From NCBI GenBank assembly GCA_019359095.1, contig JAHHHZ010000026.1:1-64000 (forward strand): 64,000 nucleotides of DNA, given 5' to 3'. The position numbers were made by a program, and so were the translations under genes. The stretch's first letter is position 1, and every line of letters begins with the position of its first letter. Below, in pieces: positions 24,408-29,968 of this stretch. The notes under the pieces are model-generated. The model made no database searches and was not told the origin of the DNA. It saw only the letters and a list, made by a program, of their open reading frames with translations. Origin of the DNA: Pleurocapsa minor HA4230-MV1 (GTDB taxonomy: Bacteria; Cyanobacteriota; Cyanobacteriia; Cyanobacteriales; Xenococcaceae).

Positions 24408-25841
24408 ATGACTTTAACCGTATACAATACCCTCACTCGCAACAAATCAGCGTTTCAGACCATTGAAGAGCATAAAGTGCGGATGTATTGCTGTGGCATA
24501 ACTGTTTATGACTATTGCCACCTAGGTCATGCTAGAACTTGTTTAGTTTGGGATGTGGTGCGTCGCTATTTACAGTGGAGTGGCTACGAAGTTAACTATA
24601 TTCAGAACTTTACTGATATTGACGATAAAATTCTCAAGCGCGCCAATCAAGAAGGAACATCGATGGAGGCGGTTTCGGAGAAGTATATCGCTGCCTACTT
24701 TGAAGATATGGAACGTTTAGGAGTAGGAAAAGCAGATGCCTATCCTCGTGCAACCCATACTTTGAATGGTATCAAGCGTTTAATCGCCGAACTAGAACAA
24801 AAAGGTTTTGCCTATCCTGCTGAGGGTGATGTTTACTATGCAGTGCAGAAGTTTCCTGATTATGGCAAGCTGTCGGGTAGGAAATTAGCAGATATGCAGG
24901 CAGGTGCTAGCGGTAGAGTTGATGAAGATCCAGATAGTAAAAAACAATATCCCTTTGATTTTGCCCTCTGGAAGGCGGCTAAAGAGGGTGAACCAGCTTG
25001 GGAGTCTCCTTGGGGAAATGGTCGTCCTGGCTGGCATATCGAGTGTTCGGCGATGGTGCGCGAAAGACTGGGAGAAACTATCGATCTTCATGTAGGTGGT
25101 GGGGATTTGACTTTTCCCCATCATGAAAACGAAATTGCCCAATCAGAAGCAGTTACGGGTCAACCCTTGGCTAACTATTGGCTACACAACGGCATGATTA
25201 TTGTCGAAGGGAAAAAGATGTCTAAATCTTTAGGCAACTTTATTACGATCCGCGAATTGTTAGATAAATATGAACCAATGGCGGTACGTTTATTTATCTT
25301 GCAGGCTCAATATCGCAAACCTGTAGATTTTACCGATGAAGCCTTAACTACGGCGACGCATAGTTGGTCAACTCTCAAAGAAGGATTACTGTTTGGTCAT
25401 CAATATGGGAAACAACTAGGTTTTTCTGGGACAGATTTGTTAAACGAGGAACTAGTAACCAGATTTAAATCCGCTGTAGATGATGACTTCAATTTCGCTG
25501 GTGGATTAGCAGTACTGTTTGAAATTGCTAAGAACCTAAGTAAGGAAGGTAATATTCTAATTCACGAAGGAACAACTAAAACTGACGCTCAATCATTAGA
25601 GCAACAATGGCAAACTTTGACCCAATTAGCCACTGTTTTAGGTTTTACAGCCAGTACTGATGAAGATAGTAGTGATACAGGTTTAAGTGACTCAGAAATT
25701 GATGCTTTAGTCCAGCAGCGTAATGAAGCTAGAAACAATAAAGATTATGCCCAAAGCGATCGCCTTCGAGATGAATTACAAGCTCAAGGTATTACTTTAA
25801 TCGATAAACCTGGAGGAATAACTATTTGGAATCGAGATTAA
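24408..25841 (+). CDS. cysS: Cysteine--tRNA ligase
   Basis: 477 aa from the ATG at 24408 (MTLTVYNTLTRNK); the frame is open 23 codons further upstream from a TTG, but that part is not conserved. HIGH motif YDYCHLGHAR, a zinc-binding Cys in MYCCGITVYD, WHIECSAM, and KMSKS in GKKMSKSLGNF are all present. The C-terminal helical domain is complete ([17 protein letters not shown]). It charges tRNA-Cys (4300-4370). About 100 bp of its 3' end is duplicated at 27595-27715. Confidence 0.96.
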   Translation: MTLTVYNTLTRNKSAFQTIEEHKVRMYCCGITVYDYCHLGHARTCLVWDVVRRYLQWSGYEVNYIQNFTDIDDKILKRANQEGTSMEAVSEKYIAAYFEDMERLGVGKADAYPRATHTLNGIKRLIAELEQKGFAYPAEGDVYYAVQKFPDYGKLSGRKLADMQAGASGRVDEDPDSKKQYPFDFALWKAAKEGEPAWESPWGNGRPGWHIECSAMVRERLGETIDLHVGGGDLTFPHHENEIAQSEAVTGQPLANYWLHNGMIIVEGKKMSKSLGNFITIRELLDKYEPMAVRLFILQAQYRKPVDFTDEALTTATHSWSTLKEGLLFGHQYGKQLGFSGTDLLNEELVTRFKSAVDDDFNFAGGLAVLFEIAKNLSKEGNILIHEGTTKTDAQSLEQQWQTLTQLATVLGFTASTDEDSSDTGLSDSEIDALVQQRNEARNNKDYAQSDRLRDELQAQGITLIDKPGGITIWNRD

Positions 25842-26855: not shown

Positions 26856-27497
26856 ATGCTAGAAGTTCGGAATCGATTAGCGATTAAACAAAATTTACTC
26901 GAAGAGATCGAACAACTTAAGAACAACCAAAAAACTCTTGTCGATTCACCCATTACAGATTTAGAAATTCAACCCCAGAAAGTTCAGTTAATCGAAACAT
27001 TAACCCAGGCTTTGGAGAAGTTAAACCCTTTCCCACGTCCTCTGTTGTATGCTAGTAACCTACTCAATGGTGCTTGGTTATTACAATATTCAACTGCCAG
27101 GGAAATTCGTTCTTTAAAACGTTTACCTTTAGGATTTTTGGTAGGCAAAATTTATCAAATTATCGATCTTAATAACGCTAGTTTTGAAAATAAAGCATGG
27201 GTGCAACATAGTTCGGGTTTATTATCGGGTTATGTCAGAGTAACAGCTACTTTTGAAGTTGAAAAGCAAGAAGATCTTCAACTTCCCAACCAAAAGATTA
27301 AGATCGATTTTAAACAACGTTTTTTAGGAATCAATCAAATTTTAGGGATTAAGACAAATTTACTCGATCCGATTAGAGTCGTAGAAGCAAAAAACCCAAT
27401 TGGTAGAACTCCCAGCTTAGATCTCACTTATATTGATGAAACAATGAGAATTGGTCGAGGTGGTGATGGTAGTTTGTTTATTTTGACCAAAGCTTGA
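26856..27497 (+). CDS. PAP/fibrillin family protein
   Basis: 213 aa. The plastid-lipid-associated protein (PAP/fibrillin) signature is visible: LLNGAWLLQYSTAREI, KIYQIIDLNNASFENKA, QRFLGINQILG and the C-terminal LTYIDETMRIGRGGDGSLF. Members are lipocalin-like, bind hydrophobic molecules and coat thylakoids or plastoglobules. It is complete. A decayed partial copy with its upstream region lies at 45023-45540. Confidence 0.85.
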   Translation: MLEVRNRLAIKQNLLEEIEQLKNNQKTLVDSPITDLEIQPQKVQLIETLTQALEKLNPFPRPLLYASNLLNGAWLLQYSTAREIRSLKRLPLGFLVGKIYQIIDLNNASFENKAWVQHSSGLLSGYVRVTATFEVEKQEDLQLPNQKIKIDFKQRFLGINQILGIKTNLLDPIRVVEAKNPIGRTPSLDLTYIDETMRIGRGGDGSLFILTKA

Positions 27498-27594
27498 AGC
27501 GATTACCCTAAAGGACTAGTCCTAAAGGATTAGCTTCGCGTCCTTCGCGTCGCGTTCTAAGCGATCGCACCAGAATGGGTGTACCCTAAGGATC

Positions 27595-27715
27595 TTTAGT
27601 CCAGCAGCGTAATGAAGCTAGAAACAATAAAAATTATGCCCAAAGCGATCGCCTTCGGGATGAATTACAAGCTCAAGGTATTACTTTAATTGACCAAAAA
27701 GGTGAGACTAAATAG
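27595..27715 (+). pseudogene. Duplicated 3' end of cysS
   Basis: This stretch is nearly identical to 25706-25805 within cysS. It encodes [18 protein letters not shown] and onward to a divergent end IDQKGETK and TAG at 27713-27715. It has no start and cannot be functional alone. Only a handful of base differences separate the two, so the duplication is fairly recent. It lies 60 bp from the 3' end of the M-R fusion gene. Confidence 0.9.
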
Positions 27716-27775: not shown

Positions 27776-29968
27776 TTATTCAAGAGTTTTCAAGATATTA
27801 TTCCACTGAATTTTGTGAATAGCTTGTAATTCTTGATCTTGTTCTACAAGTTTTGAATAATCCTCAACAAATTTTTCTACTGATGTAATTAAGCGTAGAT
27901 AATATTTAAGTGTCGGGATAATACCGTTAACAATAACTTGACAACCATGATTTCTGGCAATAAGTTCAATTTCATCTTGAATCTTTATTTCATCTGCTTT
28001 GTCTATATGGGTAGTTGAAAATATATAGTATCTTCTGGGATGATATTTTAATATTTTATCTTTTGCATTTAAAATCATTTGTAAGTTAATTGGTTTGCCA
28101 TATTTAATTTCTATAGCTTCAATAACACTCTTTTTTTTATCAAAAATTTCAATGTCTCCTGCTGTTTTAGAAGTACTATCTGATGCGGTATGACTACCTA
28201 AATCTCTTAAACTACAACCTTTATATCTTTCAACTTCTTCAACTAATCTTAAATAGATAGCATAAAAAGCTATTACAGGTAGTTTAGAAGCACCAAAAGT
28301 TTTATATTTATGGTTGAAGTGAGCTTCCAAACAGTTTATTACTGTTGCTATATTTAGTTTTTCAGGATTAATTAGCTTAATAATAGAAATTTGATTGGCT
28401 TGTGTAGCTTGTATTACTTGAAAAATTAATAACTGAGCAATTAACTCTGCTTGATTAGGATTTTTTTCTACAAAATCAATGATATTTAAAAATGCTTCTT
28501 TTACAATTTTGTTACTTATTTTGCCATTGTAATCTAAATTATAAGGATAAGGCTGTTCTAAAGAGCGAGTCAACCAACCGCTTTCTGCCATAGCAGGCAA
28601 ACCTAGTTCTTTGAGGGTAGGTGTAATGTATTGAGTATCTATTGTTCTACCAGAAAATCCTCCAGGCAGATTTGATTGATGATATCGAATGTCTTGAGTA
28701 GGTTCAATAATTTTATGTATTAATAAAGTTATTAATACGGTATAAACTCCTTTTTGCTTAGTACAATTTTGAGCAATAGTCTGAATGTATATAAATAATT
28801 GATTTGATAATGTATTTTTAATATCTGAAGATTTATTATATATATCTAATAGTTTTTGCTTATGATTCATAATAACAATCCCTGAAATATCAAGTTGTCT
28901 TGGTTTTGGCTGATAAAAATTAATATTATTCTTTTGTAATTTATGTTTTGGTGCTAATAAATTTTGCTTTTTGATTTGAATTGCTAATTGATAAATCATT
29001 GGGACAGGTACAGAGTTACCAATTTGCTTATAACACTCTGCTATTGAATTATGTATTTTAAATGTATCGGGAAATCCCATAATTCTATAACATTCTTTAA
29101 CTGTTAATTTACGTACTTTATTTTCCTTGGATATATAAATAAAAAATCTTCCAGAAGTTTCTTGAGATGGAATTGTGGGATGAACTCCTTCTACCGAATA
29201 AATACGATTTGGTTGATGATGTACTCTTGAAAGATGCTGTGTATTTGGTCTTACTCCTTTCTTCCAGGTTGTTTTATCATTTCTATATCCAGCAAAAATT
29301 AAACCTGAAGGTTGCTGTTTAGGATTATCTATCAAGGTGTAGTCTTGAGTTTTTAAATATTCAAAATTTCCATTTTTACAAAGATAATCTTCGAGTTTTT
29401 TGATTGATTTATTCGTTTCAATTTTATTAAAATCAAATTTTTTATTTTTAGTGGCAAAGATAATTATTCTTTCTCTATTTTGAGGAAGACCAAAATCTTT
29501 AGAATTTAATATTTTATAATCTACTAAATATCCCAAATATTCTAAAGAATAAAGAATCGTATCTAACGTTCTTCCCTTGTCATGATGAACTAAATGTTTT
29601 ACATTTTCTAAAAGCACAACACTAGGTTGCTTAACGGCTATAATTTCGCAAATGTGAAAAAATAACGTACCTCGTGTATCTTCAAAACCTTGTCTTTTGC
29701 CACAGATACTAAAAGGTTGGCAAGGAAAACCTGCGGTCAAAATGTTACAGTCAGGTATTTCTTCAATATTTATTTGAGTAATATCATTCTGTGGTTTGTC
29801 TCCAAAGTTATTAAAGTAGACCTCTTGACAAGCAGAATCTATTTCACTAGAGTACACACACTCATATCCTGCCTGTTCAAACGCCAATCGAAAACCTCCA
29901 ATCCCAGCAAAAAGATCGATAAACTTTGCTTGGTACTTATCCACATCCGAACAATAAAGAACAGTCAA
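27776..29968 (-). CDS. Type II restriction-modification fusion: cytosine-C5 methyltransferase plus SacI-like endonuclease
   Basis: 730 aa. Residues about 16-335 form a complete m5C methyltransferase: FIDLFAGIGGF, catalytic Cys in GFPCQPFS (81-87), ENV (121-123), QNRERI (163-168), a target-recognition region about 180-285 and IGNSVPVP. Residues about 365-730 are a second domain with GGFSGRTIDTQYITP, ESGWLTRSLEQPYP and a PD-(D/E)xK-like site, D605 then E620-I-K622. This resembles the SacI-type restriction endonucleases. An internal Met at about 367 may mark the old endonuclease start. The start is TTG 29968 or a nearby GTG. The gene has no HIP1 site and is more A+T-rich than its neighbours, suggesting recent transfer. 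Specificity (GAGCTC for SacI) is inference. Confidence 0.75.
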   Translation of the reverse strand: MTVLYCSDVDKYQAKFIDLFAGIGGFRLAFEQAGYECVYSSEIDSACQEVYFNNFGDKPQNDITQINIEEIPDCNILTAGFPCQPFSICGKRQGFEDTRGTLFFHICEIIAVKQPSVVLLENVKHLVHHDKGRTLDTILYSLEYLGYLVDYKILNSKDFGLPQNRERIIIFATKNKKFDFNKIETNKSIKKLEDYLCKNGNFEYLKTQDYTLIDNPKQQPSGLIFAGYRNDKTTWKKGVRPNTQHLSRVHHQPNRIYSVEGVHPTIPSQETSGRFFIYISKENKVRKLTVKECYRIMGFPDTFKIHNSIAECYKQIGNSVPVPMIYQLAIQIKKQNLLAPKHKLQKNNINFYQPKPRQLDISGIVIMNHKQKLLDIYNKSSDIKNTLSNQLFIYIQTIAQNCTKQKGVYTVLITLLIHKIIEPTQDIRYHQSNLPGGFSGRTIDTQYITPTLKELGLPAMAESGWLTRSLEQPYPYNLDYNGKISNKIVKEAFLNIIDFVEKNPNQAELIAQLLIFQVIQATQANQISIIKLINPEKLNIATVINCLEAHFNHKYKTFGASKLPVIAFYAIYLRLVEEVERYKGCSLRDLGSHTASDSTSKTAGDIEIFDKKKSVIEAIEIKYGKPINLQMILNAKDKILKYHPRRYYIFSTTHIDKADEIKIQDEIELIARNHGCQVIVNGIIPTLKYYLRLITSVEKFVEDYSKLVEQDQELQAIHKIQWNNILKTLE

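Follow-up and report, generated by a model that had tools for sequence, protein, structure and literature searches.

In the window analysed here, the first 64,000 nucleotides of contig JAHHHZ010000026.1 of the cyanobacterium Pleurocapsa minor HA4230-MV1, one open reading frame appears to join a cytosine-C5 (m5C) methyltransferase (M) and a restriction endonuclease (R) in a single chain. A previous inspection of the letters alone (here, the sequence-only reading) proposed an uncommon and recently arrived enzyme, with GAGCTC as its site if SacI-like. The question raised by this locus is whether both halves are what they seem, which site they would act on, and how two genes came to be one.

Two domains in one reading frame

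The open reading frame has no internal stop, and its features are the following:

27776..29968, minus strand: single open reading frame, m5C methyltransferase plus SacI/EcoT38I-type endonuclease (730 aa; 722 aa if the start is the GTG at 29944)
29942..29944, minus strand: probable start codon GTG, residue 9
28967..29926, minus strand: C5-cytosine methyltransferase domain, residues 15–334, with GFPCQP (C83), ENV and QNRER motifs (PF00145, E 1.2e-95; M.HhaI fold)
29135..29308, minus strand: putative target-recognition region of the methyltransferase, about residues 221–278, boundaries approximate
28871..28963, minus strand: linker, residues 336–366, with fast protein change (dN/dS) and low model confidence (pLDDT)
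28868..28870, minus strand: in-frame ATG (Met367), where stand-alone R genes start (from a comparison of the MNH motif)
27779..28870, minus strand: endonuclease domain, residues 367–730, with the PD-(D/E)xK core at about 562–693 (from the model and its EcoT38I match)
28103..28156, minus strand: active-site stretch D605 ... E620-x-K622 (71-sequence alignment; strands at 606–609 and 615–622)

The GTG is probably the start codon, in preference to the TTG at 29968, since aligned homologues such as L037 begin there. The same joint frame was found in a sister species (G005) at 97% identity and in three further genomes (G011, G013 and G015) at 79–81%, and the M–R join was also present in 17 other cyanobacterial genes examined. 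Because the fused frame recurs in other assemblies, the join is no sequencing frameshift. The N-terminal half scores 321 bits against the curated PF00145 cut-off of 22, carries the catalytic PCQ, ENV and QxRxR motifs, and has M.HhaI as its nearest PDB relative (fold TM 0.83 by target length). Its target-recognition region is well conserved among the fused members and the split member L016; a search of phages with this region returned nothing useful.

Residues 367–730 gave no convincing match in Pfam, NCBIfam or PADLOC, and the window protein has no direct Pfam match to the SacI family (PF09566), so that it stays below the curated cut-off. However, when a seven-member family profile was aligned by hhalign with five SacI-like relatives, three of which pass the PF09566 cut-off of 19.3 bits, the two profiles matched over 326 columns (Prob 99.7, E 8e-27), which relates the domain to the SacI family by homology to its accepted members. 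RE_SacI also reached E ≤0.1 with 23 of the 71 aligned R domains, including the SacI-like L020 and L021, the window protein not being one of the 23. The AlphaFold2 model of the R domain (mean pLDDT 94.1) found its best solved match, over nearly the full length, in the EcoT38I endonuclease (7edb_A; E 1e-11, TM 0.67/0.69), followed by two more EcoT38I chains and then by no structure with E <0.1; matches of the R profile to PDB sequences were weak and were taken for chance. In the predicted structure and the alignment, the core fold holds D ... (D/E)xK in place, with D605 and K622 unchanged throughout the 71 domains and E620 conserved in at least 90% of them, whereas the distant relative L009, which lies outside that alignment, lacks the catalytic lysine. 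By sequence and predicted structure, then, these residues and the fold indicate that the C-terminal half is a PD-(D/E)xK endonuclease domain of SacI/EcoT38I type, one that the family libraries used had missed. In the full-length model, pLDDT was 87.2 within domains and below 50 at linker residues 345–365, and the arrangement of the domains was uncertain (pTM 0.52).

Over six pairs of genes, dN/dS was 0.05–0.18 in M, 0.13–0.23 in R and 0.42–0.85 in the linker. By these ratios both halves are under purifying selection, and both activities look maintained. These results bear out what the sequence-only reading had claimed of the protein itself, namely a complete m5C methyltransferase, an in-frame join, and a SacI-like second domain with a PD-(D/E)xK site at D605, E620 and K622.

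The avoided site and its proposed cause

Observed and Markov-expected counts were compared in an 864 kb sample of the own genome, and 1008 degenerate palindromes were ranked by z. GDGCHC (D = A/G/T, H = A/C/T) ranked first, with 27 sites observed against 562 expected. Six hexamers that jointly make up this motif were low, namely GAGCTC (0/63), GAGCAC (1/193), GTGCAC (2/64), GGGCAC (2/106), GAGCCC (3/90) and GGGCCC (19/45), whereas GAGCGC was not avoided (199/174). Counted over the whole own genome on both strands, GAGCAC occurred 19 times, GAGCGC 1416 times, and GAGCTC 14 times against 68 for its reversed control, a figure that varies widely among relatives. The genome-wide count called for by the sequence-only reading thus did find GAGCTC low, yet as the whole site this hexamer is too narrow, the avoided motif being the wider GDGCHC. 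An HhaI-like GCGC specificity was also rejected, GCGC being only mildly low in the 864 kb (1603 against 2061 expected).

The same motif ranked first in the other fused cyanobacterial loci (1/54 observed/expected) and in split cyanobacteria (1/38), second in split non-cyanobacteria (15/99), fourth in G013 (5/180) and 14th in 47 kb sampled from a distant Bacteroidetes subgroup, in a ranking by z that favours wider motifs, with GWGCWC and GKGCMC equal or lower by ratio in some sets. It also ranked second (17/205) in a joint sample of G006 and G020, which are without the system.

Between genomes, GAGCAC was set against its reversed control, and the median of this ratio was 0.053 in 14 fused cyanobacterial genomes, 0.062 in the 26 cyanobacterial genomes that have the system and 0.38 in 48 relatives that lack it. 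Ratios below 0.1 were found in 11 of the 14 (the other three having 0.11, 0.12 and 0.71), 17 of the 26 and 12 of the 48. The 26 and 48 genomes differed by Mann–Whitney (p 3e-5) and Fisher (p 0.001) tests, related genomes not being independent samples. The group of 48 retained G028, G035 and G042, which have distant SacI-like genes only, and left out G002 and G053 (broken R) as well as G027, G032 and G058 (M only). In family f1 the comparison was of five genomes that carry the system with 21 that do not, G002 being left out; taken over GAGCGC, GAGCAC differed at p 0.0003 and GAGCTC at p 0.001. The ratio was mixed, from 0.056 to 2.3, in 30 genomes with the system in other phyla. One site count covered 49 genomes, drawn from 50 loci chosen among the best 80 relatives.

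From these comparisons we infer that GDGCHC is the site of the enzyme and that the enzyme is the cause of its avoidance. Against the enzyme as cause, a ratio below 0.1 was also seen in 12 of the 48 relatives in which no close R was detected; since relatives without the system also avoid GDGCHC, another or lost system must account for those. In G048, G059, G034, G007 and G008 the gene is absent and GAGCAC is nearly missing all the same, which is likely due to another or lost system of GDGCHC type. Lost systems were reported to leave avoidance traces (PMC4687349), and G002, which has R only as a remnant elsewhere (L022) and transposase-like genes, tentatively named, at the locus of the window gene, fits such a trace. 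Two further m5C systems in the own genome weigh against sole attribution as well, with NgoPII-type (G000:C27, L002) and NgoFVII-type (G000:C24, L003) endonucleases beside m5C methyltransferases. In the own 864 kb, CCGG (22 against 1342) and GGCC (389 against 1342) also lie far below what composition predicts.

Could the true site be a subset, GAGCTC as in SacI or GWGCWC, with part of the GDGCHC avoidance due to another system? The SacI family link of the R domain would agree with this, and so would the own sample, where GWGCWC has a lower ratio still (3/320) and where z favours wide motifs. However, the low counts of GGGCAC, GAGCCC and GGGCCC lie outside such subsets, and in all five sample sets with the system z was stronger for GDGCHC than for GAGCTC, GRGCYC or GWGCWC, so that a narrower site seems improbable, though worth keeping in mind. 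Far less credence is due to the reading that the endonuclease half is inactive or unspecific and the gene in effect a lone methyltransferase. It could appeal to a homologue truncated inside R (L018) and to the genome with the R remnant only, but the catalytic residues of R are conserved, its dN/dS is low, and the three genomes in which only an M gene was found show no avoidance (GAGCAC ratio 0.72–1.18). GDGCHC is retained as the candidate site of a working enzyme. NspII and SduI recognise GDGCHC, and EcoT38I recognises GRGCYC, a subset of it. Bsp1286I likewise belongs to a GDGCHC system; for the window gene, a place among the GDGCHC systems is a tentative one, drawn from site avoidance. Methylation of GDGCHC has been reported for a Bacillus enzyme and for a nanohaloarchaeon, in the parts available of three reports (PMC3459991, PMC11001535, PMC10266531).

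The locus, the relatives and the history of the fusion

In the sister species G005 the gene lies at the same locus, between cysS and a SAM-methyltransferase gene, within a 3.2 kb match to the window at 93.6% DNA identity. The GC content of the gene stretch is 27–30%, below the 33–45% of its surroundings, and a foreign origin at some time is therefore likely. No compared window gene was found in the 14–20 kb that surround the homologous genes in G011, G013 and G015. As the sequence-only reading had noticed, HIP1 (GCGATCGC) is absent from the 2.2 kb of the gene; its suggestion of a recent arrival is not supported, in view of the same-locus gene in G005, the purifying selection on both domains and the site avoidance. 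The gap over the gene is only the fifth largest in the window, where five of 94 gaps reach at least 2390 bp against about 2.8 expected under random spacing. The missing GCGATCGC says little on arrival, and the gap was rejected as a sign of it. The site avoidance itself points to a long residence of the gene.

Next to the end of the gene that encodes the endonuclease, positions 27594–27693 repeat 100 bp of the cysS 3′ end (25705–25804) at 97% identity. G005 has a shorter second copy in the same place (87 bp, 92%) and lacks about 1.5 kb between the window's copies, including the gene at 26856–27497. A reading of this duplication as the scar of a gene insertion is not supported, since the copies flank the stretch from cysS to the gene rather than the gene; with its counterpart in G005, the second copy is also older than an insertion confined to the own genome would be.

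Scanning named genomes yielded 140 relatives, and the 80 best were retained: 20 fused, 58 in which M and R occupy separate frames, and two with R only. The corresponding locus table, with duplicates, holds 91 loci (27 fused, 60 split, four R only). The sequence-only reading regarded a fused m5C M–R chain as uncommon, which stands insofar as most relatives have two genes and falls insofar as 20 of the best 80 are fused. By title, 18 of these 20 are cyanobacterial, together with L098 (Clostridia) and L108 (Pilibacter), and the frame is broken in three (L035, L047 and L093). A third fused member from Bacillota, annotated as a methyltransferase only, lies on a Staphylococcus epidermidis plasmid (L006, 3240–5360), between two IS257 copies and beside bla genes. 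No phage record covered 80% of the fused protein among the best 10 of 1571, and two viral contig loci carried R with no close M found.

A quick tree built from 76 systems requires four changes of the fused or split label, one of them in Bacillota, and the count is the same with the starred branches alone. Starting from a split ancestor, the preferred history has the two genes fuse once in cyanobacteria and once in Bacillota and separate again twice later (in Planktothrix and in three Nostoc), although the changes on the tree do not distinguish gain from loss; on this preferred reading, the fused form would have arisen at least twice in the SacI-like family. In a sister lineage (L077, L080 and L087), M, one stop, one codon and the R start follow each other in a single frame, and thus stop loss would fuse them.

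Fusions of the same kind involve other endonucleases as well. Among the long methyltransferase frames inspected in relatives, those of G006, G007 and G008, all three related to the genus, join an m5C methyltransferase to an HpaII-type endonuclease in a single chain (L222, 1329–3317; L223, 1159–3138; L224, 2719–4773; E 2e-95 to 2e-97), and that of G021 joins one to a HaeII-type endonuclease (L225, 1405–3543, 713 aa; E 1e-130). Like the window protein, these chains of 660–713 aa have m5C M at the N-terminus and R at the C-terminus; they differ in the endonuclease families. The methyltransferases of G017 and G020 (L226, 678–2795, 706 aa; L227, 2205–4256, 684 aa) have a long C-terminal half with no convincing Pfam match; this half may be another endonuclease joined in the same way.

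Among 388 genomes drawn from the same class, the HpaII-type domain matched in eight, six over the full profile, and four of these six lie in frames of 654–693 aa, M being shown in two (G011 and G039). The HaeII-type domain was found in 11, with the profile covered completely or nearly so in eight; one of the eight sits in a frame of 705 aa, by its length a candidate fusion. The window-type R domain matched in 31 at E ≤1e-10; four of the nine matches with at least 50% identity over at least 360 positions lie in frames of 730–745 aa, the own one included, M being tested in two. In every fused chain with both domains located, M comes first. These counts lead us to propose, at even chances, that single-chain m5C restriction–modification is a recurrent natural class in which endonucleases of no fewer than three types (SacI/EcoT38I, HpaII and HaeII) became fused behind m5C methyltransferases in cyanobacteria, and which, unlike Type IIC/G, would consist of two independent tethered enzymes whose site is strongly avoided in the host genome.

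Proposed working and relation to known systems

It is quite likely that the gene encodes a working Type II restriction–modification system in one polypeptide, derived from an M-then-R operon by loss of the stop between the two genes. The N-terminal domain would methylate a cytosine of GDGCHC in the host chromosome, and the SacI/EcoT38I-type domain would cleave the same site when unmethylated, presumably in defence. Like the separate enzymes of a two-gene system, each half would recognise DNA by itself, tethered to the other by the flexible linker; if M acts as a monomer and R as a dimer, methylation could precede cutting. According to the available part of a review, most methyltransferases are monomers and endonucleases are typically dimeric, and a combined chain should therefore go through a methylating, non-cutting state while it accumulates (PMC12707154). 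Such a tethered pair agrees with the linker and with the full size of the R domain predicted for the window protein.

Since both predicted activities lie in one reading frame, in agreement with the textbook definition of Type IIC (PMC4081073), the protein might instead work in the classical Type IIC/G manner, with a shared recognition domain and SAM-dependent cutting at a distance. This is very improbable: R has stand-alone homologues and a predicted full-size fold of its own, the separate domain arguing against the shared recognition domain of Type IIG; M retains its own target-recognition region; and GDGCHC is palindromic and avoided, whereas avoidance was reported for the sites of single-chain Type IIC/G systems in 0 of 107 cases (PMC4687349, in the part available). 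Another reading concerns the joint chain itself, which would be only part of what the cell contains if an internal start at Met367 yielded free endonuclease beside it. MNH at the former R start is kept, in frame, in 18 of the 18 fused cyanobacterial genes compared (the window gene included, L035 and L093 left out), while the linker alongside changes fast. However, no common Shine–Dalgarno-like stretch was seen by eye upstream of the ATG, the N and H next to Met367 are also conserved and belong to the R domain, and the Bacillota fusion L108 has no Met at the matching position, so that an internal start is doubtful.

The tethered, stop-loss product remains the preferred reading, and its parts have known counterparts. 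EcoT38I (7edb, 7e8r) resembles the window R in predicted fold, but shares 15–18% identity only, without a match at the sequence level, and is by name a separate endonuclease. The SacI family is akin by profile, although its distant relatives L007–L009 adjoin adenine methylases encoded as separate genes. In the engineered RM.Eco29kI, an m5C methyltransferase and an endonuclease likewise share one chain and a palindromic site, the stop and start between two genes having been replaced; it is artificial, with R first and of GIY-YIG type, whereas the window system is natural, with M first and a PD-(D/E)xK domain (PMC3039593). It works, with phage protection below that of the two-gene form, and its authors stated in 2011 that the other proven Type IIC enzymes carry m6A methyltransferases and that natural fusions could exist (PMC3039593). 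The Type IIC/G enzymes BpuSI, MmeI and BtgZI also hold both activities in one chain, with M before R in BtgZI as well; they differ from the window system in that R mostly precedes an M of the gamma class (the alpha class in BtgZI) and that cleavage falls outside the site (PMC4081073). The available part of a survey describes fusions of two-gene Type II systems as rare, with 0.9% of Type IIC more than 50% similar to two-gene systems, mainly in Firmicutes (PMC4176335). Among the papers listed in our literature search, none dealt with a natural m5C M–R fusion of the window type, and named REBASE entries may exist.

A natural family with fused, one-stop-apart and split relatives allows the evolution of such a fusion to be followed, and the system may matter for the transformation of strains that carry it. 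If the avoidance is due to the window enzyme, its R half acts like the independent endonuclease of a two-gene system. Therefore, if fused enzymes cause the avoidance of GDGCHC, they would be an exception to the single-chain pattern, and the cause proposed for that pattern, an endonuclease activity dependent on the methyltransferase, would become testable (PMC4687349, in the part available).
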